DNA from: Candidatus Nitrospira nitrificans
GTDB taxonomy: Bacteria > Nitrospirota > Nitrospiria > Nitrospirales > Nitrospiraceae
Length of the DNA: 64,000 nt
Direction: 5' to 3'
NCBI RefSeq assembly: GCF_001458775.1
Contig: NZ_CZPZ01000035.1
Span: 1 to 64,000 of the forward strand
Made by a program: the position numbers and the translations under genes. Below the pieces are notes generated by a model that made no database searches, had not been told where the DNA came from, and worked only from the letters and a program-made list of their open reading frames with translations. Numbering within the stretch: the stretch's first letter is position 1; each line of letters opens with the position of its first letter. Below are positions 24,565 through 50,486 of the stretch, one piece after another.

Positions 24565-24863
24565 GTTGGCTTCTCCCTTCTGTCTGTTAGAGCTGAGTTC
24601 CATCCGTCACATGAATTGTGCGGCTCGCCTTTGAGGTGGTACCCAAGCAGGAATACTGCCACCGAGCGCCAAACCTCTAAGTCGGTGACATTGCACGCAA
24701 ACTTCTTGAAACACATGCAATCACTCCGGGCGCGGCGCGGGACAATGTGTTCCGATCAAGGAGAATCAGTCGGAAATTCAAGTGCGATGTATTGCCGTGG
24801 ATCGAGCACCTCGTCGGCAAGTTCGAGGCAGTACGTATTCTTCTACGCATAGGAGTTATGGAT

Positions 24864-26318
24864 ATGGCACAACATCCCCGCATCCTTGTCGTGGACGATG
24901 ATCGCGACACCTTATCCTTTCTTCGAGAGGTCCTCTCGCAGGAAGGCTACGAGGTGGAAACCACCAAGAGCGCGAAGGCGGCCTTAGGCATGGTGGCTCA
25001 ATGCCGACCCGATCTCATCATGTCCGACATTCATATGCCTGAGCTCGACGGATTGAGCCTGCTCTCGGAACTTCGTTCCCGCCGTCACGACATGCCGGTG
25101 ATCTTGATGACAGCGTATGGTTCCTTGAAGACCGCAGTGGACGGCATCCAGGCCGGAGCGTTTGATTACCTGAGCAAACCGTTCATGTTGGATGATGTGC
25201 GCTTGGTGGTCCATCGAGCCCTCGAACATATGCAGGTCCCTCCCCACAACCAGCAGCTCAAGAACCAACTGAACGATCGATTCGATGGTCTCATCGGCAG
25301 CAGTCCGGCAATGGTCCAGGTCTATAAATCCATCGCTCGGGTCTCGCGAACAGACAGTACCGTGCTCTTGCAGGGGGAGAGCGGCACAGGCAAGGAACTC
25401 CTCGCTCGAGCCATTCATGCCAACAGCAACAGGAAGACGGGACCATTCGTTGCCGTGGACGGCGGGGCGTTGACTGAAACCCTGCTCGAATCGGAATTGT
25501 TCGGCCATGAGCGGGGGGCCTTTACCGGGGCGGTGGGCGTGAAAAAAGGACTCCTCGAAAAAGCCCATCTGGGAACCTGTTTCTTGGACGAGGTGGCCGA
25601 CTTATCCGCAACATTGCAAGGGAAGTTACTGCGTGTGATCCAGGAGCGGGAGATCCGCCGGGTCGGCAGCACGACACCCATGGATGTGGACGTGAGGATC
25701 ATCGCCGCGTCCAAGAAGGATCTCAGCGCCCTCGTGAAAGCGGGCACATTTCGAGAAGATCTGTACTATCGGTTGAATGTGGTGACCATTGCCATTCCCC
25801 CGCTGCGTGAGCGGATGGAGGATGTGCCGCTTCTGGCGGAGCACTTCGTTCAAATCTACGGCGCCGCAAAAGCCCCGCAGGTGACCGGAATTTCGACCGA
25901 CGCCATGACGGTGCTTACTCAATACTGGTGGCCCGGCAACATCCGAGAATTGGAACACGCGATCGAGCGGGCGGTGGCGTTGAGCCCACATCCCATTCTC
26001 TGTCCGGAAGATCTTCCCCTGGCGGTGCGTACTGCGACGGTGCGGGAGGCGGACCACGCAAGAGGATGGATGACGGTGGAAGAACTGGTGCGCGAACATA
26101 TTGTTCGTGTGCTGAAGCACCACAATGGTGACTTGGGTCGTTCTTCATCCATACTCGGCATCCATCGGAAAACCTTGCTCAGAAAACTGCGTCAATATGG
26201 TCTCGTCGGCGGCCCTCGGACAGGCTATCCAAGCCCGGACACTTTGTCCGTCCCAGCCGGAGACGAACGATCGCCTTTGGAAGAACAATCCTTCGAAGAG
26301 TCGGCCTATACGTCCTAA
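24864..26318 (+). CDS. NtrC-family sigma-54 response regulator
   Basis: 484 residues. Receiver (RILVVDDDRDTLSFL, phospho-Asp in LIMSDIHMPELDG), AAA+ domain with Walker A GESGTGKELLARAIH, the sigma-54 contact loop ERGAFTGA, Walker B TCFLDEVADLS, and a Fis-type helix-turn-helix (LGRSSSILGIHRKTLLRKL). AGGAG lies 8 nt before ATG 24864; the ATG at 24858 is too close to it. Acts as an enhancer-binding activator of sigma-54 promoters. No matching kinase is adjacent. The receiver protein downstream may belong to the same circuit. Confidence 0.95.
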   Translation: MAQHPRILVVDDDRDTLSFLREVLSQEGYEVETTKSAKAALGMVAQCRPDLIMSDIHMPELDGLSLLSELRSRRHDMPVILMTAYGSLKTAVDGIQAGAFDYLSKPFMLDDVRLVVHRALEHMQVPPHNQQLKNQLNDRFDGLIGSSPAMVQVYKSIARVSRTDSTVLLQGESGTGKELLARAIHANSNRKTGPFVAVDGGALTETLLESELFGHERGAFTGAVGVKKGLLEKAHLGTCFLDEVADLSATLQGKLLRVIQEREIRRVGSTTPMDVDVRIIAASKKDLSALVKAGTFREDLYYRLNVVTIAIPPLRERMEDVPLLAEHFVQIYGAAKAPQVTGISTDAMTVLTQYWWPGNIRELEHAIERAVALSPHPILCPEDLPLAVRTATVREADHARGWMTVEELVREHIVRVLKHHNGDLGRSSSILGIHRKTLLRKLRQYGLVGGPRTGYPSPDTLSVPAGDERSPLEEQSFEESAYTS

Positions 26319-26418
26319 TCCTACTAATCCTAATTGATGCGCTCACTGACACATGTCAGATGTTGGACGAGAACGGTTATTGCACATGCGCGTACAACAC
26401 ATCGGAAGGAGGTGCGCG

Positions 26419-26847
26419 ATGCAAGGTTACGGAAAGCGAATCCTGATCATCGATGACGCGGAGGACCTCCGTTATCTCACGAGCATGGCGCTTTCAACCG
26501 CCGGCTATAATACCTACTCAGCCTCGGACGGAGCCGAAGGTCTCGATGCCATGACAAAGCGACGGTACGATGTGGTTTTGGTCGATCACCACATGCCGCG
26601 AGTCAACGGCCTCCAATTTATCGAGACGAGTCGAGCCAAGTGGCCGGACACGCCGATTATCTTCATGTCCGGGGACCACCGGTTCTACGGTCACGGCGAT
26701 CTGCTCGAAGGAACTTTTGCGTGCGTTGAGAAACCCTTCGAGTTGCCCCATCTCATTGAGTTGATTGGTTGTGCCTGCCGGAGGAGGGCGCGACAAGAAC
26801 CGGCCCAGATGCCGGCCTTTTCATATCTCGGCTCTGTGCCTCTCTAA
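26419..26847 (+). CDS. Single-domain response regulator
   Basis: 142 residues. ILIIDDAEDLRYLTSMAL, phospho-Asp in VVLVDHHMPRVNG, then IIFMSGD and the CVEKPFELPHL switch. The extra 20 residues at the C-terminus are not a DNA-binding domain. GGAGGTGCGCG precedes ATG 26419. It follows the NtrC-type gene by 100 bp on the same strand. Likely a relay or a partner of a distant kinase. Confidence 0.88.
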   Translation: MQGYGKRILIIDDAEDLRYLTSMALSTAGYNTYSASDGAEGLDAMTKRRYDVVLVDHHMPRVNGLQFIETSRAKWPDTPIIFMSGDHRFYGHGDLLEGTFACVEKPFELPHLIELIGCACRRRARQEPAQMPAFSYLGSVPL

Positions 26848-27169: not shown

Positions 27170-29518
27170 ATGGGAAGCATGAACAAGACAGCGACGATTG
27201 AACAGGGGTTGGGCACATTAATTATTACCGGCAGCAGCGGTCGCATCGGCAGCTCGTTTATTGATCGCGTCGGCGAACGCTTTATCGAGATGGGGTTCGA
27301 TCGAGAAGGGCCGCCCCATCCGCCGCCGGACACCGAACACGTCATCGACTGTGATCTGAGCTCGGATCACAGCGTGCAGAGTGCGTTGGACAAAGTGCGC
27401 GGGCTCGGACATACACGAATTACCTCGGTGATCCATCTTGCCGCCTACTATAGTTTTTCCGGCGAGCCGAGTCCCTTGTATGAGCAAGTCACCGTGCGCG
27501 GCACCGAACGGCTGTTGCGCGGGTTGCGCGATTTCGAGGTGGAGCAATTCATCTTTTCCAGCACCATGCTGGTGCACGCGCCGTGCGAACCGGGAGAACG
27601 CATCAACGAAGAGTGGCCCCTCAAGCCGAAATGGGAGTATCCCAAGTCGAAGGTCGCCACCGAGCAACTGATTCTGCGCGAGAGAGGGGATGTGCCGGTG
27701 GTCCTCCTGCGTATCGCCGGTGTCTATGATGATCACTGCCACTCGATTCCCATCTCACACCAAATCAAGCGCATCTATGAACAGCGACTCATCGGCCGTC
27801 TGTATTCGGGCGACCTCACGCATGGGGCCTCCTTCGTGCATATGGACGACATGGTTGAGGCCTTGGTGCTCGCCGTCGAGCATCGCAAGGACCTTCCGCC
27901 GGTCACGACCCTGCTCATCGGCGAGCCGGACACGCTCAGCTATGACGAACTCCAACGAGCCATCAGCCGCGGGCTTCACGGTCATGAATGGACCACCTAT
28001 CGCATTCCCAAGCCGATCGCGAAACTTGGCGCCTGGCTCCGGACCTTGCTGCCGGGCGCCGATCCCTTCATCAAGCCGTGGATGATCGACATCTCCGACG
28101 ACCATTATGCCCTCGATATTTCCCGCGCCCGCGCGCTGCTCGGTTGGAATCCGCGACATTCGCTGCGCGAAACATTGCCGACAATGCTCGCCGCGCTTCA
28201 ATCCGACCCCGTCGATTGGTATCGGGAAAACGATTTGAAATCGAAGACCGTTTCCGACGGCCCGTCCTGGCCGCATGTGGCGAACATGCTGCTCGGATTG
28301 TGGCTCATCGGCACGGTGCCGGCGCTCGGCACGATCGACCCGGCGCTGACCTGGAGCGATCTCGCGAGCGGCGCGGCGATTATGCTGTTCAGCGCGCTCG
28401 CTGCTCGCCATGCCTGGGCGGCTTGGACCGTATGCGGACTGGGCCTCTGGGTGATGAGCGCGCCGTTGGTGTTCTGGGCGTCGAATGCCGCCGTCTACAA
28501 CAACGATCTGCTCGTCGGCGCGCTCGTGATTGCGTTCGCTGTCATTGTCCCGCAGTTCGGTCGCGACGATCCCGGCTCGGGCGCTCCGCCGGGCTGGAGT
28601 TACAACCCTTCCGGCTGGGTGCAACGATCGGCGATCGTCTTCCTGGCGATGATCGGATTTTTTCTCGCTCGTTATCTGGCGGCGTTTCAACTCGGTCACA
28701 TCGTCTATCCGTGGGACCCCTTTTTCGGCGAGGGCACGAGACGCGTCCTCACCTCGGACGTTTCGAAAGCCTTTCCGGTGTCCGATGCCGGATTGGGAGC
28801 GCTCTCATATCTGCTCGACGCTCTGGCCGGGCTGATCGGAGGCGTGCGACGCTGGCGCACCATGCCGTGGATGGTGGTGCTGTTCGGGGTCTTCATCATC
28901 CCTCCCGGTGTGACCAGCATCGTCCTGGTGATTCTCCAACCGGTCGGCATCGGCGACTGGTGCACGTTGTGTCTGGTGGCCTCGGTGGTGATGTTGCTGA
29001 TGGTGTCTCCCGCTTTGGATGAGGTGATAGCCACCGGCCAGTTTCTCCTTCGCGCGCGACGTACGGGCGCCAGTGTCTGGCACGTCTTTTGGCACGGGGA
29101 ACACGGCGCGGTGGATGAGCCAAAGATACGAACACGCTCGCTGCTCTCAGAAATGCTGCACAGCATTGAAGCGTTCTCCGCCCCATGGAACCTGTGGCTG
29201 AGCACAATGGTCGGAGTCTGGTTGATGGCTGCGCCGACAGCGTTCCACTTGGCCGGAGCCGTTGCCGATAGTACTCACATCGTGGGGGCGCTGGTCGTGA
29301 CATTCTCGGTGGTGGCGTTCGCCGAACCCGCGCGTCCGGTGCGCCTGTTGAACATGCTGTGCGGCGCATGGCTGCTCCTCGCTGCCTGGATCCTTGACGG
29401 CGGCGCGCCGAGTTGGACGTGGATCGGCATCGTCAGCGGGCTCGCGCTCATTGCGCTCAACGTTCGATGTGGTCCGATCGAGGATCAGTATGCCGGCTGG
29501 CAAGGATTGATTCGTTGA
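27170..29518 (+). CDS. Fusion: NAD-dependent epimerase + SPW + VKOR-like + SPW membrane protein
   Basis: 782 residues. Residues 15-345 are an extended short-chain dehydrogenase/epimerase (GSSGRIGSSF, catalytic-type Y157-P-K-S-K161, HLAAYY). Residues 365-460 form a first SPW repeat (NMLLGLWLIGTVPAL, GLGLWVMSAPLVFW). Residues 485-615 are polytopic with SKAFPVSDAGLGALSY and the in-membrane redox pair DWCTLCLV (C598, C601), as in vitamin-K-epoxide-reductase-like proteins; no loop cysteine pair is visible before it. Residues 650-760 are a second SPW repeat (TMVGVWLMAAPTAF, LCGAWLLLAAWI). One chain thus joins a cytosolic dehydrogenase to a redox-type membrane module. The substrate is unknown. Confidence 0.85.
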   Translation: MGSMNKTATIEQGLGTLIITGSSGRIGSSFIDRVGERFIEMGFDREGPPHPPPDTEHVIDCDLSSDHSVQSALDKVRGLGHTRITSVIHLAAYYSFSGEPSPLYEQVTVRGTERLLRGLRDFEVEQFIFSSTMLVHAPCEPGERINEEWPLKPKWEYPKSKVATEQLILRERGDVPVVLLRIAGVYDDHCHSIPISHQIKRIYEQRLIGRLYSGDLTHGASFVHMDDMVEALVLAVEHRKDLPPVTTLLIGEPDTLSYDELQRAISRGLHGHEWTTYRIPKPIAKLGAWLRTLLPGADPFIKPWMIDISDDHYALDISRARALLGWNPRHSLRETLPTMLAALQSDPVDWYRENDLKSKTVSDGPSWPHVANMLLGLWLIGTVPALGTIDPALTWSDLASGAAIMLFSALAARHAWAAWTVCGLGLWVMSAPLVFWASNAAVYNNDLLVGALVIAFAVIVPQFGRDDPGSGAPPGWSYNPSGWVQRSAIVFLAMIGFFLARYLAAFQLGHIVYPWDPFFGEGTRRVLTSDVSKAFPVSDAGLGALSYLLDALAGLIGGVRRWRTMPWMVVLFGVFIIPPGVTSIVLVILQPVGIGDWCTLCLVASVVMLLMVSPALDEVIATGQFLLRARRTGASVWHVFWHGEHGAVDEPKIRTRSLLSEMLHSIEAFSAPWNLWLSTMVGVWLMAAPTAFHLAGAVADSTHIVGALVVTFSVVAFAEPARPVRLLNMLCGAWLLLAAWILDGGAPSWTWIGIVSGLALIALNVRCGPIEDQYAGWQGLIR

Positions 29519-29570: not shown

Positions 29571-31292
29571 CTATGGGCCCGTGGAGGACACGGTGTACCG
29601 CTCTTCGATCGCGGAACGCACCAATTGTCGGCTTCGCTCGGCACTGAGGGAGGACTGCTGCTCGATCAGCCGAACCGCGGCAGCCAAGTGGGGATCTTTA
29701 ATGCCTTCTTCCATCCACTTGCTGTAATCCCCCTGTCGTAGGTGATGCAACCAGGTGGCCTCATCGACCCCCTCCGCCGTTTGCATAAACAAAATCAGGT
29801 TCTGCGCCCGCAGATTCAACACATTCTCCGGACCGCGGAAAAAGAAACTCCGGTCCGACGGCAATTCCCCTTCGGCATATTTCCGCCGATGACGTCGACG
29901 ATCCGCTTCACAGGGGGCGATGCGCACCCGATAGGGTGGCGTGCGGGCCCGCCGATCCCAAAAGATCGCTTCACCATGATTCAGCGTCGTCGGTTCCATC
30001 TGAGGTACCGGCACATCCAGCGTCCCGCACAATCGCGCGATCGTGCCGCCCGGATCATCTCCCAACGCCGCCATCGCCTCCACCCGTTGAAGGACCGGTT
30101 TTGCAATCTGGTCCGGATGCACGGTGACGTAAACGATGCCGGTCCAATCTTGAGCCAAGACACCCTGTACCGGTTGCCAATCGCGCGGCATCAAATGATG
30201 GGTTTCGTCGATGAGAATCCAATGGGGTCGACCGAATTTTGCCCGCCGCTCTTGAAGGGCCGGCAACAGCGCCAGAAAAAAGTCCGGACGATCTTGTAAC
30301 GATAAGCCTACGAGATTGACGATCAAATTCGTGTTCGGGCTGTCCAAAGCAGTGAGGATTTCCGCCATTCCCGGACCCCGTTGCGAAGTCCCAAACATGA
30401 CCGCTCCCGCAAAGCCCTCGTAATCCCCCTCGGGATCGATCACGCAGAACTGATACCCCTGTTCGATGACACGTTCGAGCAGTCCGGTAGCCAGGGTGGA
30501 TTTTCCACTCCCGGAGGAACCGGCCAGCAAGAGGTTGAGTCCCGTGGCAGGAATTGACACTTCCTCGCCGTTCTCTTGCATGCCGATGAGGATATTACGG
30601 CGGTTCGTGTTGAACGGAGGCACAGCGAGGTCATGTTCAACCAGTTCATCGATGATTTCGGCGACGCCGACTCCTGCCGCTCCGGTGGTGACCCGATCGG
30701 CAATGTCCTTGAGGGTCGGCACGGCGTTCGCCACCGCCACCGCGTACTCACAGTGATTGAGCAAGGCATGGTCGTTTTCCGCGTCTCCGATCGCCACGAC
30801 GTTGCGCGGAGATAAGCCCATCTCTTGCAATGCGGCCACGAGGCCGGTGGCTTTGTTGACCCCGGACGGGACGACCATGACGGCATCCCGATTGAAAATA
30901 ACTTGTAATTCGAGACCCAGATCTCGAATGACCTCGAGCACTGTCAGCTCATGCGGTCGAATCGTGCCGACGATCGACTCCCCGACCGAAAGCTCAGCAA
31001 CTTGTCGGCGGCGAAGCTCATCGACGAATCCCGGAGGAATCGGAGTGGCCAACCTGATCTGTTCTCGTGTGGCGGGGCGATAAAGCGCGGCCCCATTGTC
31101 CGCGACGACTCGCTCGCACAGTCCGATTTCCGGAAAGATATCCAGGATGTCCGGCAATCGGCGGCCCGTTACCAGAATGATTTTCCGTCCGGATTGATTG
31201 AGACGTTCAAGAGCGGCGATTGTCTCTTGTTCCACCCGGCCATCCACGGCCAGCGTGTTATCGTAATCCGTCGCTACGGCAACGTACCTCAT
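29571..31292 (-). CDS. Fusion: HAD-IIB phosphatase + HerA-like ATPase
   Basis: 573 residues from ATG 31292; a GTG 18 nt upstream is possible. N-terminal HAD: YVAVATDYDNTL with the nucleophile pair, ILVTGRRLPD, then VNKATGLVAAL and VVAIGDAENDHALL (Cof/SPP type). From about residue 235: NILIGMQENGEEVSIPA, Walker A LAGSSGSGKSTLATGL and Walker B HWILIDETHHLM, as in HerA/DUF87-type ATPases. The remaining C-terminus is helical and unassigned. Soluble. Role unclear: the pairing suggests sugar-phosphate dephosphorylation controlled by, or coupled to, an ATPase. Confidence 0.82.
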   Translation of the reverse strand: MRYVAVATDYDNTLAVDGRVEQETIAALERLNQSGRKIILVTGRRLPDILDIFPEIGLCERVVADNGAALYRPATREQIRLATPIPPGFVDELRRRQVAELSVGESIVGTIRPHELTVLEVIRDLGLELQVIFNRDAVMVVPSGVNKATGLVAALQEMGLSPRNVVAIGDAENDHALLNHCEYAVAVANAVPTLKDIADRVTTGAAGVGVAEIIDELVEHDLAVPPFNTNRRNILIGMQENGEEVSIPATGLNLLLAGSSGSGKSTLATGLLERVIEQGYQFCVIDPEGDYEGFAGAVMFGTSQRGPGMAEILTALDSPNTNLIVNLVGLSLQDRPDFFLALLPALQERRAKFGRPHWILIDETHHLMPRDWQPVQGVLAQDWTGIVYVTVHPDQIAKPVLQRVEAMAALGDDPGGTIARLCGTLDVPVPQMEPTTLNHGEAIFWDRRARTPPYRVRIAPCEADRRRHRRKYAEGELPSDRSFFFRGPENVLNLRAQNLILFMQTAEGVDEATWLHHLRQGDYSKWMEEGIKDPHLAAAVRLIEQQSSLSAERSRQLVRSAIEERYTVSSTGP

Positions 31293-31434
31293 GGGAATCG
31301 CCTGAAACACCGGGCATGTTTCACCGGCGGCAACTGCATGATATCCGCAATCCGGTCCTGATCCGCCGACTCTACATGACTCCTCGTGTAGGCTTGGAGA
31401 GATAGGAATTGCGACGAGCGCGAACCGTCACAGG

Positions 31435-34447: not shown

Positions 34448-35623
34448 ATGAGTCCACTTCGTCCGACGTCCGAGACTACGCCGGCTTCCTCTGCTCCACC
34501 ACAGGACGCTCGGTCGAGCAAGCCCGGAATCGACCGGCATTTATGGGAAATCCGCCCCGTCCGCGACCTGATGATTTTCGTCGCCATGGCCGGGCTGCTC
34601 TGGTTTCTCTACGAATTACGCAGTGTCTTCTTGCCGGTGTTTATCGCCCTCTTATTCGCCTATCTGGTCGATCCGTTTGTCGGGCATGCGTTCACACGTT
34701 GGTCGATTCCGCGCCCTGTCACCGTCGGGGTTCTGATGTTCGTGTTGGCTCTCGCCGGCATCGGGATAGGACTGTGGCTCGTGCCGCTCTTGATCGAGCA
34801 AGCCCAGACGCTCATACAGAAGATTCCGGTCTATGCGCATAATATTTCAGACCGGTATGAGTCCCTGTTCAGCAGCTGGTCGTTCAACTTCGGTGATTTC
34901 ATCGGCCGCGTGCAGAATGATCCGTTGGCGACGCTCCAGCCCCTCCTCTCGGGGACCGGTCACGCATTCGGCTTGCTGGGACAGCTGCTGGGGGTCACGT
35001 TCAATGTCGCTCTGTATGCGATCTTGATCCCGATCTACTTTTTCTTCTTCTCGTGGCATTTTGACGGCATGAGTCGAACCGTCGTTCGCCTGATTCCTAT
35101 CACGCATCGACCGCATCTGCTGCATGTCTTGCATCGCATGGATACGGCCGTGCGTGGCTTCTTTTCCGAACGACTCCTCATCGCGATGATCACCGGGGTC
35201 GTCTATGCAATAGGGTGGGCATTGACCGATGTCCCCTATTGGTTCCTGCTGGGAGTGGCCACCGGCATCGCCTCCCTCGTGCCCTACCTGTCAGCCGTCG
35301 GATGGCCGTTGGCCGTGGCGCTGAAGTATGCCGATGCCGTGACCGCCGGCCAGCCGGCCGAAACCGGATGGATGGCCATCCTCCTATGGCCAAGCGCGGC
35401 CTACCTGATCGGACAGTTCATCGAAAACTGGATCTTGACTCCCTGGTTGCAAAGTCACTCCACGGACATGAGCGCGGTCACGATCCTCGTCGTCGTCTTT
35501 CTGGGCGGCGCCATCGCCGGCCTGTTCGGACTGATCTTTGCCATCCCAGTGGCAGCCTGCATAAAAATTGCCATAGAGGAGTTCGTGCAACCGCGATGGC
35601 AGCAGTGGGTGCGAGAGACATGA
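34448..35623 (+). CDS. AI-2E family permease (PerM/YdiK-like)
   Basis: 391 residues with about seven to eight hydrophobic helices and the central helical hairpin domain of the family (residues 120-200). Blocks seen: LPVFIALLFAYLVDPFVGH, GRVQNDPLA and FLGGAIAGLFGLIFAIPVAA. Inner membrane; proposed to move small molecules or ions, substrate not predictable. It overlaps the next gene in an ATGA junction (35620-35623), so the two are translationally coupled. Confidence 0.9.
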   Translation: MSPLRPTSETTPASSAPPQDARSSKPGIDRHLWEIRPVRDLMIFVAMAGLLWFLYELRSVFLPVFIALLFAYLVDPFVGHAFTRWSIPRPVTVGVLMFVLALAGIGIGLWLVPLLIEQAQTLIQKIPVYAHNISDRYESLFSSWSFNFGDFIGRVQNDPLATLQPLLSGTGHAFGLLGQLLGVTFNVALYAILIPIYFFFFSWHFDGMSRTVVRLIPITHRPHLLHVLHRMDTAVRGFFSERLLIAMITGVVYAIGWALTDVPYWFLLGVATGIASLVPYLSAVGWPLAVALKYADAVTAGQPAETGWMAILLWPSAAYLIGQFIENWILTPWLQSHSTDMSAVTILVVVFLGGAIAGLFGLIFAIPVAACIKIAIEEFVQPRWQQWVRET

Positions 35624-36684
35624 AGAGAGACATGAACGGGCTCAGAGGAAAGACCAAGATGGAGAATCGTACTCAGCACGAGGAGAAACGCCGGACGCGG
35701 AAGGTTGTCGTCGTCACCGGCGCGTCGGCCGGGGTCGGTCGCGCCATTGCCGTGGAGTTTGGGAGGCACGGGCATGCGGTCGGATTATTGGCACGTGGCC
35801 GTGATGGACTGGAAGGCGCTCGACAGGATGTCGAGCAAATGGGTGGGACCGCCTGTCTGGTCCAGGCGGACGTCGCCGATCCGGATCAAGTTGAACGCGC
35901 CGCGGCGCAGATCGAAACCGATCTTGGACCGATCGATATCTGGATCAACAATGCCATGGTCTCGGTGCTATCCCCCGTGAAGGATATGACAACCGATGAA
36001 TTCAAACGCGTGACCGACGTCACCTACCTTGGCTATGTCCATGGGACCCTCGTGGCGCTGCGTCGCATGCTTCCGCGCGACCGAGGCGTCATCATTCAAA
36101 TCGGATCGGCTTTGGCCTATCGAGCCATCCCGCTTCAATCGGCTTATTGCGCCGCGAAACATGCCGTTCAAGGCTTTACTGAATCGCTGCGATCGGAACT
36201 GATTCATGATGAAAGCCGCGTACAAGTGGCGACGGTTCACCTCCCCGCGGTCAACACGCCACAGTTTTCGTGGGTGAAGACCCGCATGCCACGCCATTCC
36301 CAACCTGTGCCGCCGATATTTCAGCCGGAAGTCATCGCCCGGTCCGTGTACTGGGTCGCGCACCACCCGCGACGCGAGTTCACGATCGGACTCTCCGCGG
36401 TGAAAGCGATCATCGGCGATAAGTTCATCCCCGGACTCTTGGACCGTTATTTGGCCGGCATGGGATACGACGCTCAGCAAACACACGAATCGATCGATCC
36501 CCATCGTCCGAACAATCTGTATGCCCCCGTGCCGGGCGATTACGGCGCGAGAGGACGGTTCGACGACCGATCCGCCGATTATAGCCCGCAGGCTTGGGCC
36601 AATCGCTATCGCGGTTGGCTGGCGCTTGGAGGGTTGAGTATTGCAGCCTTATTCGCTCATCTGAGAGCCAGGAGGTCATCATGA
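35620..36684 (+). CDS. Short-chain dehydrogenase with C-terminal extension
   Basis: 354 residues. VVVVTGASAGVGRAIAVEFG (nucleotide binding), INNAMVS, and the catalytic Ser-Tyr-Lys in IGSALAYRAI and YCAAKHAVQGFTESL. About 100 residues follow the classical domain, including a hydrophobic C-terminal helix (GWLALGGLSIAALFAHL) that could anchor it to the membrane. Starts in the ATGA overlap with the permease. Starts at 35632 or 35659 are also possible. Confidence 0.88.
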   Translation: MKRDMNGLRGKTKMENRTQHEEKRRTRKVVVVTGASAGVGRAIAVEFGRHGHAVGLLARGRDGLEGARQDVEQMGGTACLVQADVADPDQVERAAAQIETDLGPIDIWINNAMVSVLSPVKDMTTDEFKRVTDVTYLGYVHGTLVALRRMLPRDRGVIIQIGSALAYRAIPLQSAYCAAKHAVQGFTESLRSELIHDESRVQVATVHLPAVNTPQFSWVKTRMPRHSQPVPPIFQPEVIARSVYWVAHHPRREFTIGLSAVKAIIGDKFIPGLLDRYLAGMGYDAQQTHESIDPHRPNNLYAPVPGDYGARGRFDDRSADYSPQAWANRYRGWLALGGLSIAALFAHLRARRSS

Positions 36685-37139
36685 AACGCGCGACCGCTTC
36701 GCGGTTGATTCTCGTGATTCCATTCGTCTCGGCGATCTCGATGCCGGCCGGGCAAGACGGCTACGGACATGCGCGGCTTGCCGCATCGCACGCACAGGCG
36801 CAAGAACGACCGTCTTATCAACACAAACAGGAACGCATCGTCCGCGCGACCGAGCAAGAAAAGGAAGCGTTCGACAGGTTCGTCGCGCACGAATCGCGTT
36901 TCAAGGACCATTACCAGGCGAACTTTTTGGCATCGCATTATGAATACCACCAATATCGTCCGGCCTACCAACATGGATTCGAGCTCGGCCTTGACCCGCG
37001 TTATGAGAGAGCGGACTGGAACAGCGTAGAGCCGGACGCACGGCGAACCTGGGTTGAAAGCACGATGGGATTGTGGAGTCAGTATCGAGATGCCGTGCGC
37101 TACGGATGGGAACAGGGTGTCGCATTGAAACGGAAATGA
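36681..37139 (+). CDS. Secreted protein of unknown function
   Basis: 152 residues. An N-terminal hydrophobic segment is followed by Gln/Glu/Tyr/His-rich sequence: YQANFLASHYEYHQYRPAYQHGFELGL and WVESTMGLWSQYRDAVRYGWEQG. No known domain named. Strong AGGAGG site; ATGA overlap with the SDR gene before it. Third gene of the permease-SDR set and located just before cydAB. Confidence 0.7.
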   Translation: MKRATASRLILVIPFVSAISMPAGQDGYGHARLAASHAQAQERPSYQHKQERIVRATEQEKEAFDRFVAHESRFKDHYQANFLASHYEYHQYRPAYQHGFELGLDPRYERADWNSVEPDARRTWVESTMGLWSQYRDAVRYGWEQGVALKRK

Positions 37140-37211
37140 CGACACACTCGAAGCGAAGCGGTCAGCGCCCATCCGACGACCCACCTTCACGAGTCAGGAC
37201 ACGACAGGGTT

Positions 37212-38561
37212 ATGATGTCGGATCTTATGGCTGCCCGCTCTCAAATGGCGATGTCCTTGGGCTTTCACATCGTCTTTGCCGTGTTGGGCATTGCGATGCC
37301 GGTGTTGACGGCGACTGCCGAGTGGAAATGGCTCAAGACGCGGGACGACACCTATCTCGCCCTTGCCAAGCGCTGGTCGAAGGGCACCGCCATTTTATTC
37401 GCCGTCGGCGCCGTGTCCGGAACCGTCCTCTCGTTTGAACTCGGCTTGCTCTGGCCTTCGTTCATGGAGCGGGCCGGTCCTGTCATCGGCCCCCTCTTCG
37501 GCCTCGAAGGGTTTGCGTTCTTCACGGAAGCGATCTTTCTCGGGATCTATCTGTATGGCTGGTCGCGCATCTCACCACGAGCGCACTTTCTTGCCGGTCT
37601 TGTCGTCGCGGCGAGCGGGATGGCCTCCGCGATTTTTGTCGTCACGGTCAACGCCTGGATGAATGCCCCGACCGGTTTCGATATCATTGACGGGCGAATC
37701 GCCGATGTCCGTCCGTTGGTCCCGTTGTTGCACCCGCTTGCCTTCCATGAAACGGTTCATATGTTGCTTGCGGCCTTCGCGGCGACCGGCTTTCTCGTGG
37801 CCGGCATCCATGCATTCTTTCTCTTGCGACGCCCGTCCGATCGGTTTCACCGACAGGCGTTGGCCATCGCTCTCGTCGTCGGCGGTATTCCTGCCGTCCT
37901 TCAACCGTTCAGCGGAGATCTGATCGCTCGGGCGGTCGCCGCTCATCAGCCGGCCAAGCTGGCCGCGATGGAAGCGCTCTTCGTTACGGAAGCCGGAGCG
38001 GATTTCGTGCTGTTCGGACTTCCGGACGCTTCTACGCACACAGTCAATTATGCGCTGACGATCCCTCGCGGGTTGAGCCTCCTGTTGCATGGCGATCCTC
38101 AGGCTGTCGTTCTCGGACTTGACAAGATCCCCCCTGAAGAGTGGCCTCCCGTCGCCGTCACCCATGTGGCCTTTCAACTGATGGTGGGCTGTGGGCTAGT
38201 CATGGCGGGAGTGGCAATCTGGGCGAATGTACGCCGGCGACAAGGAAGTCTTGAAAAGGATCGAGGGCTTTTACGCACGTTGATCGTTGTCGCCCCGTCG
38301 GGATTCATCGCCATCCAAGCCGGTTGGGTCGTGACCGAAGTCGGCCGCCAACCATGGATCATACAGGGACTCATGCGCACCTCGAAGGCTGTGACTCCCA
38401 TGCCGGGCCTTTGGATTCCCATGCTGACTTTCACTCTCTTGTATCTGCTCCTGGCGGCAGTCGTCGTCTGGGCTATCCGGCGTCACATTGCCGCCGCCGA
38501 CGTCGCCTCTTCCTCTGCGGAACATACAGTAAGGAAGGAGTCGAGCGATGCTCTCGTATGA
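37212..38561 (+). CDS. cydA: Cytochrome bd-type quinol oxidase subunit I
   Basis: 449 residues, nine predicted helices. Heme-ligand region SLGFHIVFAVLGIAMPV near the N-terminus, GLEGFAFFTEAIFLGIYLYGW, AFHETVHMLLAAF, FQLMVGCGLVM with the likely Met ligand, and GWVVTEVGRQPWIIQGLMRTS. The quinol-binding Q-loop is short, as in the cyanide-insensitive (CioA-like) branch. It reduces O2 to water with high affinity and without proton pumping. Overlaps cydB by 14 bp. Confidence 0.93.
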   Translation: MMSDLMAARSQMAMSLGFHIVFAVLGIAMPVLTATAEWKWLKTRDDTYLALAKRWSKGTAILFAVGAVSGTVLSFELGLLWPSFMERAGPVIGPLFGLEGFAFFTEAIFLGIYLYGWSRISPRAHFLAGLVVAASGMASAIFVVTVNAWMNAPTGFDIIDGRIADVRPLVPLLHPLAFHETVHMLLAAFAATGFLVAGIHAFFLLRRPSDRFHRQALAIALVVGGIPAVLQPFSGDLIARAVAAHQPAKLAAMEALFVTEAGADFVLFGLPDASTHTVNYALTIPRGLSLLLHGDPQAVVLGLDKIPPEEWPPVAVTHVAFQLMVGCGLVMAGVAIWANVRRRQGSLEKDRGLLRTLIVVAPSGFIAIQAGWVVTEVGRQPWIIQGLMRTSKAVTPMPGLWIPMLTFTLLYLLLAAVVVWAIRRHIAAADVASSSAEHTVRKESSDALV

Positions 38562-39585
38562 GCTCATAGTTGCCGCCGCGCTGGTAGGCGCCCTGACTTT
38601 GTATCTGTTGTTCGGTGGAGCAGACTTTGGGGCAGGGATCTGGTCTCTCTTTGCCATGGGTCGTCAAGGGCGGTCTCAACGCGCGCTCATCGATCAGGCC
38701 ATCGGTCCGATCTGGGAAGCCAACCATGTCTGGCTCATCATCGCCGTCGTGATTCTATTCACGGCTTTCCCGCCGGCCTTCAGCGTAATCTCCGTCAGAC
38801 TCCATATCCCGCTGAGTTTGATGCTCATCGGAATCGTGTTGCGGGGGACCGCCTTCGCCGTTCAAACTCACGACATCACATCGCGTCCGGACGGATTCAC
38901 GGGTGCGCCGCTGATCTGGCATCGAATATTCGCCTGGTCCAGCTTGCTGACCCCTGCCATGTTGGGCCTGATCCTTGGAGCGATCGCATCGGGACGCGCA
39001 TCCGGGCCGACCGACACGATCCGAGAAACCTTCGTCGATCCTTGGCTGGCGCCGTTTCCTATTGCAGTGGGTCTCCTCACGACGGCCTTGGTCGCCTACC
39101 TCGCCGCGGTGTATCTGGTCCTCGAGAGTCGAGAGCCCACCTTGCGCCGTCTGTTTCGACACCGGGCCATGGCGAGCGGGGTGCTTGTCGCCATACTAGC
39201 GACCATCGTCCTGTTCCTCGCCCAGGAAGGAGCGCCGGAAATCTATCAAGATTTGGCAAGAACGGCGTTGGGTCGCGCCTCCACCGTGGCGACCGCGCTG
39301 GTACATGTGGGAGCCCTCTGGGCGTTGATCACCGAACGCGATATTCTGGCTCGATTCCTGGCGGGAGTCGGAGCCGTCGCTATCGTATGGAACTGGGCTC
39401 TGGCGCAATACCCCTATCTCGTTGAGCCTTCCGTTACGATCTATGATGCGGCCCCTCACGGAACATTGGACATTTTGCTGGCGAGCCTGCTGGTAGGATC
39501 CGTCGTCCTCCTTCCCTTTCTGTTTTACTTATACAACCTGTTCAAGGGAGATGTCCTCTCGCGTCCGGCCCAATTCAAGCGCTAA
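38548..39585 (+). CDS. cydB: Cytochrome bd-type quinol oxidase subunit II
   Basis: 345 residues, eight to nine helices. Conserved N-terminal GGADFGAGIWSL and PIWEANHVWLIIAVVILFTAFP are the signature of CydB. The middle carries LRGTAFAVQTHD. AGGAGTCGAGCG precedes ATG 38548. Subunit II stabilises the heme centres of CydA. No cydX or assembly cydCD genes adjoin. Confidence 0.93.
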   Translation: MLSYELIVAAALVGALTLYLLFGGADFGAGIWSLFAMGRQGRSQRALIDQAIGPIWEANHVWLIIAVVILFTAFPPAFSVISVRLHIPLSLMLIGIVLRGTAFAVQTHDITSRPDGFTGAPLIWHRIFAWSSLLTPAMLGLILGAIASGRASGPTDTIRETFVDPWLAPFPIAVGLLTTALVAYLAAVYLVLESREPTLRRLFRHRAMASGVLVAILATIVLFLAQEGAPEIYQDLARTALGRASTVATALVHVGALWALITERDILARFLAGVGAVAIVWNWALAQYPYLVEPSVTIYDAAPHGTLDILLASLLVGSVVLLPFLFYLYNLFKGDVLSRPAQFKR

Positions 39586-47798: not shown

Positions 47799-50486
47799 CT
47801 ATCCCGAAGACCGAGTACCTTCCTGCTCGAGTCGCAGCATGGCTGTCATGCGGACGGAAATGTGTTGTTTGACCCTGGAATAGTCGATCCAAGGATCTTG
47901 GCGCAGTTGCTGAAGACGTTCCAGGATGTTCTGAACAGTAAAGCGATGGGGCGATACTTCTCGTGGTAGCTCGTCCCAGGCAAGCGGAACGCTTATGGGA
48001 GCTCCGGGCCTGGCCCGCGTGGAATAGGCCGCCACGGCCGTCGCCCCATAGGAGTTGCGGAGATAATCGATATAGATTTTCCCGCGACGCGCGCGTTTAG
48101 CCATATTGGCCGTAAACAGAGACGGGACGACATGCGCCAAGTGTTCGGCGACCCTCTTCGAAAACGCCTTGACCTCCTCCCAACCTTTTGTTTTCTGCAA
48201 GGGGATGACGATGTGTAAACCCTTTCCACCTGTGGTTTTCACAAACGAGACGAGCCCAAGGCTATCGAGCAATGTTTTCGTCAATTGCGCAGCTTCAATC
48301 ACCTTTTTCCAAGGCAAGTCCGGGTCCGGGTCGAGATCCAATATCATGCGGTCCGGGCGATCGAGTCGGTTCCGACTCGATCCCCACGTATGAAACTCCA
48401 ATACCCCCATCTGAACGAGCGATATGACGGCTGGAAGAGACGTTGCGATCATATAGCAGGCGTAACCGTCTTTCTCCTGGATGACGATCCGACTGACCGC
48501 GGGAGCGACCTGTTCCGTGACGTGTTTCTGGTAAAAGCACCCGCCTTCATGTCCTTCGGGACAACGGACCAAGCTCAGCGGACGGTTCTTGAGATGCGGC
48601 AGAATCCATTCGGCGACGCCTTCATAGTACCGAGCCAACTCCAGTTTCGTGACCCCGATGCTCGGAAACAGCACCCGATCGGGATGGGTGAGCGTCACGC
48701 CCGCAATCTTGGTGCTACGGGACGTCTCGAGATTCACCCGTGCCTTTGCGGCGAACCGCCGGCGTCCATGGGATCGTGGGGATCGTGATGAAGTTTCGGT
48801 TGGTTGGGCAGGCGCCTGAAGGAGGGCCGACGTTGAATGGGCCTCTTCCCGCACGACTTGGCGTGGAGATTTGTCCGGGCGCAGCCCAAGAAAGGCCGCA
48901 TGACGCAAGAGTCCCTCTTGAGTCCACTCCGCAAAACGCACTTCCGCCACTAACTTCGGGCGCACCCAATGCACGCCTTTGGCGTCATACCCGGACGGCG
49001 GATTGATGACAGGGGCTTGTGATCGCGCGAGCTTTTTGAGCCTGCGGTGCAATCCTATCAAGCCTTCCTCTGAAAAGCCCGTGCCTACTCGACCGGCATA
49101 CTTGAGTGCCCCAGACTCTTCGTACACACCAAGCAGCAAGGCGCCAAATCCCTGCCGTGCCCCGGACGGATCGGTAAAGCCCACGATGACGAACTCTTGC
49201 CGACGTTGGCATTTCACCTTTACCCAGTTGCGATGACGTCCGGAGACGTAGGCAGCGTCGCCTCGTTTCGAAATCAAGCCCTCCATATTTCGACGGCAGG
49301 CTTCATCAAAGATGGTCTCCCCTTGGCCGACAATATGCGCGCTGTACCGCAACACCCCCTGCTTGGGTTCGCCTTCCAGCATCGAGGCCAGTCGACCCTT
49401 GCGTTCGAGGAGAGACTTCCCCCGACAATCTTCTCCGTCGAGATAGAGCAGGTCGAACAGGTAATACACCAATTGGCCGCCGGTCATGCCGTCAACAAAA
49501 TTTTGAAGGGCTTGGAAACTCATCGAGCCGTCGGGCAAAAGAACGACGACTTCCCCATCCAGCCAGGCCTCTGTGACCGGAAGCTTGCTCGCGGCTGCCG
49601 CCAGCGCGCCCAGCTTGTGCGTCCACTCCAAACCGTTTCGTGAATACAAACGCGCCGTGCCTTTCTGAATACGGCACAGCATGCGATACCCATCGTACTT
49701 CAATTCATGAAGCCATTCGTTTCCCCTCGGAATCGTATCGACAAGCGTGGCCAATTGAGGCCGGATCCAATCAGGAAAGCGTGCCTGCGTATCGTCCGTT
49801 CTCGAAGATGTTGTTCCTGAAACACCCACCTGCTGACGCGGCACGGGAGCGCCCCGTAAGAGGGGCTCACTCCCCTTCCGGTCAGCCGGTCTGTTTGAGT
49901 GCCAGACATCTGCTTTAGCCTCCGCGATGTCCTCCAGATCCATCCCGCTCTTCACGCTCCGTGTCTGAACCGTCGTCACATCGTTGCCGTTCGTTCGGGC
50001 CTCCCCGTCTCGCTCCTTGATCAGCAGCCAATTTTTCCCGTCGGCATCCCGGCCCTGAGCCATGCGAACCAAACTCCATCCGCCATGTAATTTTGTGCCG
50101 TCCAGATTAAACTTCAACCGTCCCTTGCGATAGGCGGCGAGAGCATCTCCTTCGGCTTTCCATCGTCCCTGATCCCATACCATCACCGCGCCGGCTCCAT
50201 ATTGTTTGGGCGGAATCACGCCTTCGAAACCGGCGTACTCCAGCGGATGATCTTCCACATGAACCGCCAACCGCTTATCGGCAGGGTTGAGACTTGGCCC
50301 TTTGGGGATCGCCCAACTTTTCAAGGTCCCTCCAAGCTCAAGCCTAAAATCGTAATGGAGACGTCGTGCCGCATGTTTCTGAATGACGAAGAGTCCTTCC
50401 GACTTGCCGGCGGTTCGCCCTCTTTTCCCAAGCGGCTCGGACGTCTTGGTGAAATCTCGCTTGCGCGTATAGTCTCGAAGACTCAT
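47799..50486 (-). CDS. ligD: DNA ligase D (non-homologous end joining)
   Basis: 895 residues in the order phosphoesterase - ligase - polymerase. Phosphoesterase: RLHYDFRLELGGTLKSWAIP (about 40-60). ATP ligase: catalytic K263 in HELKYDGYR, DGEVV, EGLISKR and WVKVKC. Polymerase/primase from about 600: RPLSLVRCPEGHEGGCFYQKH and LDLDPDPDLPWKKV. It repairs double-strand breaks with Ku; no ku gene is in this window. Suits desiccation or stationary-phase survival. Confidence 0.95.
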   Translation of the reverse strand: MSLRDYTRKRDFTKTSEPLGKRGRTAGKSEGLFVIQKHAARRLHYDFRLELGGTLKSWAIPKGPSLNPADKRLAVHVEDHPLEYAGFEGVIPPKQYGAGAVMVWDQGRWKAEGDALAAYRKGRLKFNLDGTKLHGGWSLVRMAQGRDADGKNWLLIKERDGEARTNGNDVTTVQTRSVKSGMDLEDIAEAKADVWHSNRPADRKGSEPLLRGAPVPRQQVGVSGTTSSRTDDTQARFPDWIRPQLATLVDTIPRGNEWLHELKYDGYRMLCRIQKGTARLYSRNGLEWTHKLGALAAAASKLPVTEAWLDGEVVVLLPDGSMSFQALQNFVDGMTGGQLVYYLFDLLYLDGEDCRGKSLLERKGRLASMLEGEPKQGVLRYSAHIVGQGETIFDEACRRNMEGLISKRGDAAYVSGRHRNWVKVKCQRRQEFVIVGFTDPSGARQGFGALLLGVYEESGALKYAGRVGTGFSEEGLIGLHRRLKKLARSQAPVINPPSGYDAKGVHWVRPKLVAEVRFAEWTQEGLLRHAAFLGLRPDKSPRQVVREEAHSTSALLQAPAQPTETSSRSPRSHGRRRFAAKARVNLETSRSTKIAGVTLTHPDRVLFPSIGVTKLELARYYEGVAEWILPHLKNRPLSLVRCPEGHEGGCFYQKHVTEQVAPAVSRIVIQEKDGYACYMIATSLPAVISLVQMGVLEFHTWGSSRNRLDRPDRMILDLDPDPDLPWKKVIEAAQLTKTLLDSLGLVSFVKTTGGKGLHIVIPLQKTKGWEEVKAFSKRVAEHLAHVVPSLFTANMAKRARRGKIYIDYLRNSYGATAVAAYSTRARPGAPISVPLAWDELPREVSPHRFTVQNILERLQQLRQDPWIDYSRVKQHISVRMTAMLRLEQEGTRSSG

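Follow-up and report, generated by a model that had tools for sequence, protein, structure and literature searches.

A widespread SDR-SPW-VKOR-SPW membrane protein, encoded in Candidatus Nitrospira nitrificans, whose VKOR-type bundle lacks the loop cysteine pair

Results

One intact reading frame joins an extended SDR to three membrane bundles

The window, by which we mean the whole stretch of DNA analysed here (64,000 nucleotides, positions 1 to 64,000 of contig NZ_CZPZ01000035.1 of Candidatus Nitrospira nitrificans, assembly GCF_001458775.1), contains one intact open reading frame on the forward strand that encodes SDR, SPW, VKOR-type and SPW domains as a single chain (Table 1). When the whole ORF was searched against Pfam, Epimerase (PF01370) was found at residues 18-248 (E 1e-21), VKOR (PF07884) with 73.8 bits against a curated cut-off of 27.5 (78.9 bits in the DNA-level search), and SPW (PF03779) in two stretches, both of them curated matches, the better of which covers residues 367-457 (E 5e-21). 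The two SPW bundles score 49.6 and 47.6 bits against a cut-off of 31.5 in the DNA-level search, and each is a four-helix unit in the structural model. An AlphaFold model of the full protein, calculated from a 65-sequence alignment, reached a mean pLDDT of 88.9 and consists of the SDR followed by twelve membrane helices arranged as three four-helix bundles (SPW, VKOR, SPW); the membrane part modelled by itself gave a pTM of 0.84. Domain searches and model thus confirm the domain order that the initial annotation had proposed from the sequence, and the Y157-x3-K161 and C598/C601 motifs stand at the positions given there. The cysteines of the protein are residues 61, 139, 190, 422, 598, 601, 731 and 767, with none between 423 and 597.

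Table 1. Features of the fusion gene, with positions in the window
Feature	Position	Strand	Basis or remark
Whole ORF, 782 aa	27170..29518	+	ORF translation, Pfam; intact in L003-L006 at 75-92% identity
Extended SDR, residues 15-353, GalE-like fold	27212..28228	+	Pfam, VIA-align, conservation among 65 homologues
YPKSK, catalytic Y157-x3-K161	27638..27652	+	Conserved in 65/65
SDR-SPW1 linker, residues 354-366	28229..28267	+	Short, without His/Met in the window copy
SPW bundle 1, four helices	28268..28543	+	DNA-level domain search, AlphaFold model
SPW1-VKOR linker	28544..28612	+	Segment 461-475 without Met in the window copy
VKOR-type four-helix bundle, residues 488-612	28631..29005	+	PF07884, fold match, profile match to 3kp9
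TM1-TM2 periplasmic loop (predicted), residues 508-538, without Cys	28691..28783	+	T523 aligned with Synechococcus VKOR Cys56
CTLC, C598/C601, periplasmic start of TM4 (predicted)	28961..28972	+	Aligned with Synechococcus VKOR C130/C133
SPW bundle 2, four helices	29186..29461	+	DNA-level domain search, AlphaFold model

A frameshift or assembly error at the junction between SDR and membrane part had been named as a way in which this architecture could prove false, yet homologues from other assemblies, 92, 84, 79 and 75% identical and built in the same way, have this junction intact, and the architecture also occurs on complete plasmids, so that an artefact of any kind (frameshift, assembly join or chance ORF) is practically impossible.

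Around the window copy the chromosome is of stress type and has genes for cytochrome bd, an AI-2E transporter, a PRC-barrel protein, LigD and two-component systems. The segments 24747-26318, 26353-26847, 34448-39585 and 47799-50486 carry sigma-54 and receiver regulators, an AI-2E transporter, an SDR, cytochrome bd subunits I and II and a LigD-type ligase. Directly downstream, on the reverse strand (29571-31310), lies a gene for a 579-aa protein in which a HAD phosphatase (Hydrolase_3/sucrose-6-phosphatase-like) is joined to a HerA/DUF87-type ATPase, and a gene similar to it also adjoins the fusion gene in genome G007 (L142).

The SDR domain has a GalE-like fold and lacks the nucleotide-sugar motif

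The N-terminal domain carries the features of an extended SDR: TGxxGxxG at residues 20-27, the NAD-type D44, a YxxxK motif with Y157 and K161, a Ser/Thr active site and a GalE-like fold (Z 30.4 to 4zrm_A, VIA-align). The residues for NAD binding and catalysis vary little or not at all among 65 homologues. With the GalE-like extended SDRs 2p5u, 4zrm and 6kv9 (MoeE5) it has in common the fold (Z about 30), TGxxGxxG, D44 and the S/T-Y-K site; it differs from them in being joined to 12 membrane helices and in the RxxNVYGP motif, where it has Gly for Asn and DD for GP. The segment reads RIAGVYDD in the window SDR and RYGNVYGP in the aligned UDP-glucose epimerase 2p5u. At the position of the Asn, G184 is Gly in 65/65 sequences, so that the motif is absent from all of them; L-threonine dehydrogenase (3a1n/3a4v) likewise has Gly there. 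None of the NCBIfam equivalogs galE, HpnA, LegB and RmlB scored above its cut-off, the best reaching 41 bits against the 262 required for galE. The domain had been described as being of sugar-nucleotide type. Its fold is GalE-like, but the replaced Asn speaks against this description, and on the strength of the invariant Gly and of equivalog scores far under the cut-off a nucleotide-sugar substrate is not supported by the sequences.

The module is widespread and occurs as one, two or three genes

The initial annotation had called the fusion unusual, a view that does not hold: a collection with one genome per species contains at least 520 confirmed relatives (loci), and 146 plasmid records match, 117 of them over at least 80% of the length. 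The best 80 of these at least 520 relatives belong to Nitrospirota, Alpha-, Beta- and Gammaproteobacteria, Acidobacteriota, Gemmatimonadota, Bacteroidota, Bdellovibrionota and Chlamydiota. Within Nitrospirota the distribution is patchy (26/395 genomes at a strict threshold). A survey of the fusion order found the parts in one ORF at 86 of the 99 loci examined, and most of the others are split between the SDR and the membrane part. Two adjacent genes (SDR and membrane part) occur in Pontibacter and in three genomes of the window's genus (G038, G053 and G057), while at two loci of a sister genus (L149 and L153) SDR, VKOR and SPW follow one another as three genes, the VKOR frame starting within the SDR frame. 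That the same content is found as one, two and three genes is good evidence that the parts share a function, but does not tell which one. SDR-only copies that are 67-76% identical to the window SDR also exist, as do VKOR-SPW-only copies, and the former argue that the SDR can function where the membrane part is missing. The architecture is therefore no one-off oddity; it is a widespread membrane-bound module, an uncharacterised variant of oxidoreductase type.

The VKOR-type bundle has kept the fold and lacks the relay cysteines

VKOR similarity, which a profile search could have failed to find, lies far above the curated cut-off, and the fold agrees with it. Residues 478-628 of the model superimpose on Synechococcus VKOR (4nv5_B) with Z 13.3 over 135 residues at 3.1 A (VIA-align), with human and fish VKOR close behind, and a narrow VKOR profile (A4) finds Synechococcus VKOR 3kp9 by sequence (E 4.6e-6). 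A profile of the whole membrane part (A3) had no match in the PDB, a single-sequence phmmer search returned chance matches only, and a 1.1-kb stretch of the membrane part had no DNA-level match in E. coli genomes.

Enzymes of the DsbB and VKOR type work with two pairs of cysteines: one, a CxxC, lies next to the quinone, and the other, a CXnC in a loop, contacts the partner (PMC11208910; PMC4555120). The lack of loop cysteines noted from the window sequence proved true throughout the family: the loop CXnC pair between TM1 and TM2 is absent in all 99 rows of the alignment (93 different sequences), the position of Synechococcus Cys56 is Thr/Ser in every row, and three rows have a Cys close by, which in each case sits within TM2. 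The CxxC at the start of TM4 is retained in 92/99 rows, the window protein included, and replaced by S-x-x-A in seven. These seven are intact proteins of Microvirga, Sphingobium, Novosphingobium, Pelagerythrobacter and Croceicoccus (L034, L036, L085, L103, L108, L113 and L118); they form one clade (group support 89%), the tree requires a single event of loss, and all of them lie within copper islands. S529, S532, D539, Y547, RWRTMPW, Q590-P591, D617-E618, H703 and R725 are invariant or nearly so, also in the seven S-x-x-A members, so that selection on the fold must serve a function different from thiol oxidation or additional to it. Thiol chemistry cannot be what the family does in general, given a clade whose proteins are intact and yet have lost the two cysteines, and the retention of CxxC in the remaining 92 rows argues for some role of the motif in most members.

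The VKOR family (PF07884; Synechococcus 3kp9/4nv5, human 6wv3) and the window protein thus have in common the four-helix fold, the TM4 CxxC and a placement of loop and CxxC on the outer side. The window protein differs in having no loop Cys pair, a Ser/Thr at Cys56 and no fused thioredoxin domain, and its family differs in the dispensability of CxxC in one clade and in the SPW bundles and SDR that flank the bundle. Because the defining loop pair was looked for and is missing, we do not file the protein as a VKOR enzyme, and judged from its sequence the bundle is unlikely to be a standard VKOR. Loss of the loop cysteines is not unique to the fusion: two stand-alone VKOR-type proteins (L135 and L136, in G053) have the CxxC and no loop cysteines, pointing to a wider VKOR group of this kind.

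As the main rival to the reading that we prefer (see Discussion), the VKOR part of the CxxC-keeping members could be a genuine quinone-linked thiol oxidase in which C598/C601 takes electrons directly from a DsbA-like partner, with no relay pair in between, the SDR being a separate activity. The frequency of the CxxC, at the positions of Synechococcus VKOR C130/C133, is in its favour, as is the genome of the window, which has several DsbA-like genes, no PF02600 (DsbB) match anywhere and, by profile search, no VKOR other than the fusion protein; DsbA, DsbE/TlpA and CcdA genes moreover recur in the copper islands. It is opposed by the missing CXnC pair and by the clade without CxxC. The CXXC+4 residue, important or needed in human and mycobacterial VKOR and DsbB (PMC11208910), is Ala/Ser/Gly/Thr in this family, a difference that is only suggestive of a non-standard site, as Synechococcus VKOR itself has Ile. 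Finally, VKOR is missing altogether from 50/59 genomes of the genus, which rules out that VKOR serves as the group's general disulfide oxidase. Taken for the 92 CxxC-keeping rows, direct thiol oxidation appears unlikely, if still worth serious attention.

Nearly half of the sampled loci lie in copper or heavy-metal islands

The annotated plasmid neighbourhoods of the family are metal-resistance islands with P1B-ATPases, CueR, CopC/CopD, SCO, PCuAC, DUF305, DUF411, multicopper oxidases, Cus efflux and Mer. At least one copper-core neighbour is present at 42 of 87 loci and at least two at 29; the 42 divide into 36/80 genome loci and 6/7 plasmid loci, so that about half of the loci have no copper context. 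Among 31 genomes, which were picked from both kinds of locus and some of which are related, a multicopper-oxidase gene lies within 12 kb of 13/40 copies, compared with 0.7 expected from a background computed from the search results.

What is new here, besides this share of copper and heavy-metal islands, is that the copies in them tend, by sequence, to carry Met/His-rich linkers. Most copper-island members have a Met-rich PMMPGMSxEGMMD in the SPW1-VKOR linker, and island members tend to have a longer, His/Met-bearing insert ahead of SPW1 (in other members of the family the SDR-SPW1 linker measures 36-67 aa and is often His/Met-rich), whereas neither linker stretch of the window copy contains Met or His. 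The proteins of Sphingobium, Roseobacter-group and Rhodanobacter plasmids, uncharacterised like the window protein, have the same full-length architecture at 42-49% identity to it and differ from it in their longer Met/His-rich linkers and their copper-island context. In raw counts, 84 rows are concordant for Met-linker and copper context and 14 discordant. On the tree, however, there are no more than three changes of the trait, which leaves three independent pairs; once kinship is corrected for, the association is not significant (median p 0.5), and it is therefore not established independently of kinship. The window copy is not near copper genes, and its linker-poor relatives in G007, G086 and G091 have no copper neighbours either.

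Such linkers, together with the CxxC, would be expected to bind Cu(I) if the protein were a membrane copper-binding or relay protein with the SDR as a sensor or metabolic add-on. The copper-island neighbours, the PMMPGMSxEGMMD motif and the His/Met inserts of island members fit this idea. The window form has neither linker, though, and the linkers are predicted to be cytosolic; the SDR active site is fully conserved, which would be needless for a scaffold; and all seven CxxC-less members sit in copper islands, so that the CxxC is evidently not needed there. On balance we regard copper relay as improbable.

To our knowledge, no function is known for the SPW repeat domain. SPW bundle 1 resembles a cytosolic copper storage protein in structure (6zif, Z 11.6, 3% identity), a likeness that we discounted and did not use, because helical bundles reach such Z values without kinship and because the copper-binding Cys rows of those proteins are absent here. 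In the searched literature, which for the most part lies outside subscription journals, we found nothing pertinent on SPW with VKOR, copper or epimerase.

Predicted topology places the NAD site and the CxxC on opposite faces

Taking the SDR as cytosolic and each bundle as four helices, the prediction puts the TM1-TM2 loop (508-538) and the CxxC on the periplasmic side and the RRWR and 622-672 loops in the cytosol, and the positive charges on the long cytosolic loops fit this topology. The coupling of NAD chemistry to a membrane thiol or quinone module, as initially envisaged, is weakened by this arrangement and by the loss of CxxC in one clade. In the strongest form of this idea, a single catalytic path would lead NADH electrons from the SDR to the thiols, or to quinone, in the membrane. 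The conserved physical linkage of the two parts is compatible with such a path, and a mobile quinone could in principle bridge SDR and CxxC. A direct route from NADH to thiol is nevertheless unlikely with the two sites on opposite faces; SDRs, moreover, transfer hydride to their substrates and have no flavin or haem to split electrons, the CxxC is dispensable in one clade and SDR-only copies exist. We therefore consider a single catalytic path highly improbable.

Discussion

The reading that we prefer, tentatively, is that of a membrane-anchored NAD(H)-dependent SDR that acts on a hydrophobic or lipid-linked substrate by way of the VKOR-type bundle and serves under metal or envelope stress. 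To what the data show (architecture, conservation, gene linkage and context) this reading adds, by inference, a class of substrate, a role for the cavity of the VKOR-type bundle and one in stress. On the inner side of the membrane the SDR would oxidise, reduce or epimerise, with NAD(H), a compound that is hydrophobic or lipid-linked, such as a quinone-like or isoprenoid-linked molecule. This molecule would dock, or be held as substrate, in the cavity of the VKOR-type bundle, retained for that purpose and not for thiol oxidation of DsbA type, and the periplasmic CxxC may be a dispensable accessory site for redox chemistry or metal contact. The cell might use the module to protect its envelope under metal and redox stress, the window copy then representing a linker-poor form in a stress-type chromosomal region. 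A more specific and distinctly doubtful version of this reading is that a thiol-less VKOR fold binds a quinone or isoprenoid through S529, S532, D539, Y547, RWRTMPW and D617-E618 and presents it to the fused NAD(H) SDR, which would make the protein a member of an undescribed class of membrane enzymes in copper-resistance islands.

Hundreds of species carry the protein, many of them on plasmids within copper islands. The proteins are already in databases under generic names, and those encoded on plasmids are annotated as 'NAD-dependent epimerase/dehydratase family protein' or 'vitamin K epoxide reductase family protein'; the names 'epimerase' and 'vitamin K epoxide reductase' are poorly supported by the sequence evidence. 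The fusion, the SPW domain and the copper link are described in no paper of the literature searched (subscription journals were mostly outside it), and in copper-resistance islands, which are well studied, SDR-VKOR-SPW proteins thus form a recurrent member without a described role in that literature. With the shape of the VKOR fold kept, the relay cysteines missing and the active-site cysteines lost in one clade, the family also amounts to a natural experiment on the fold without disulfide chemistry.

The surroundings of split and SDR-only copies provide some minor observations. The three-gene loci (L149:6591-8678 and L153:6435-8507) are followed, as judged by eye, by glgC- and treY-type glycogen/trehalose genes. 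The SDR-only copies L145, L146, L147, L148 and L152 have a conserved neighbourhood in which, again by eye, we recognised MerR/B12-type regulators, formylglycine-enzyme-like proteins, a ferredoxin-domain protein and cytochromes. The SDR family gene has a trehalase/GH15-like gene next to it or close by in Pontibacter (L032, annotated as trehalase-like) and, by eye, at two Nitrospiraceae loci (L150 and L154), which hints at a carbohydrate link.
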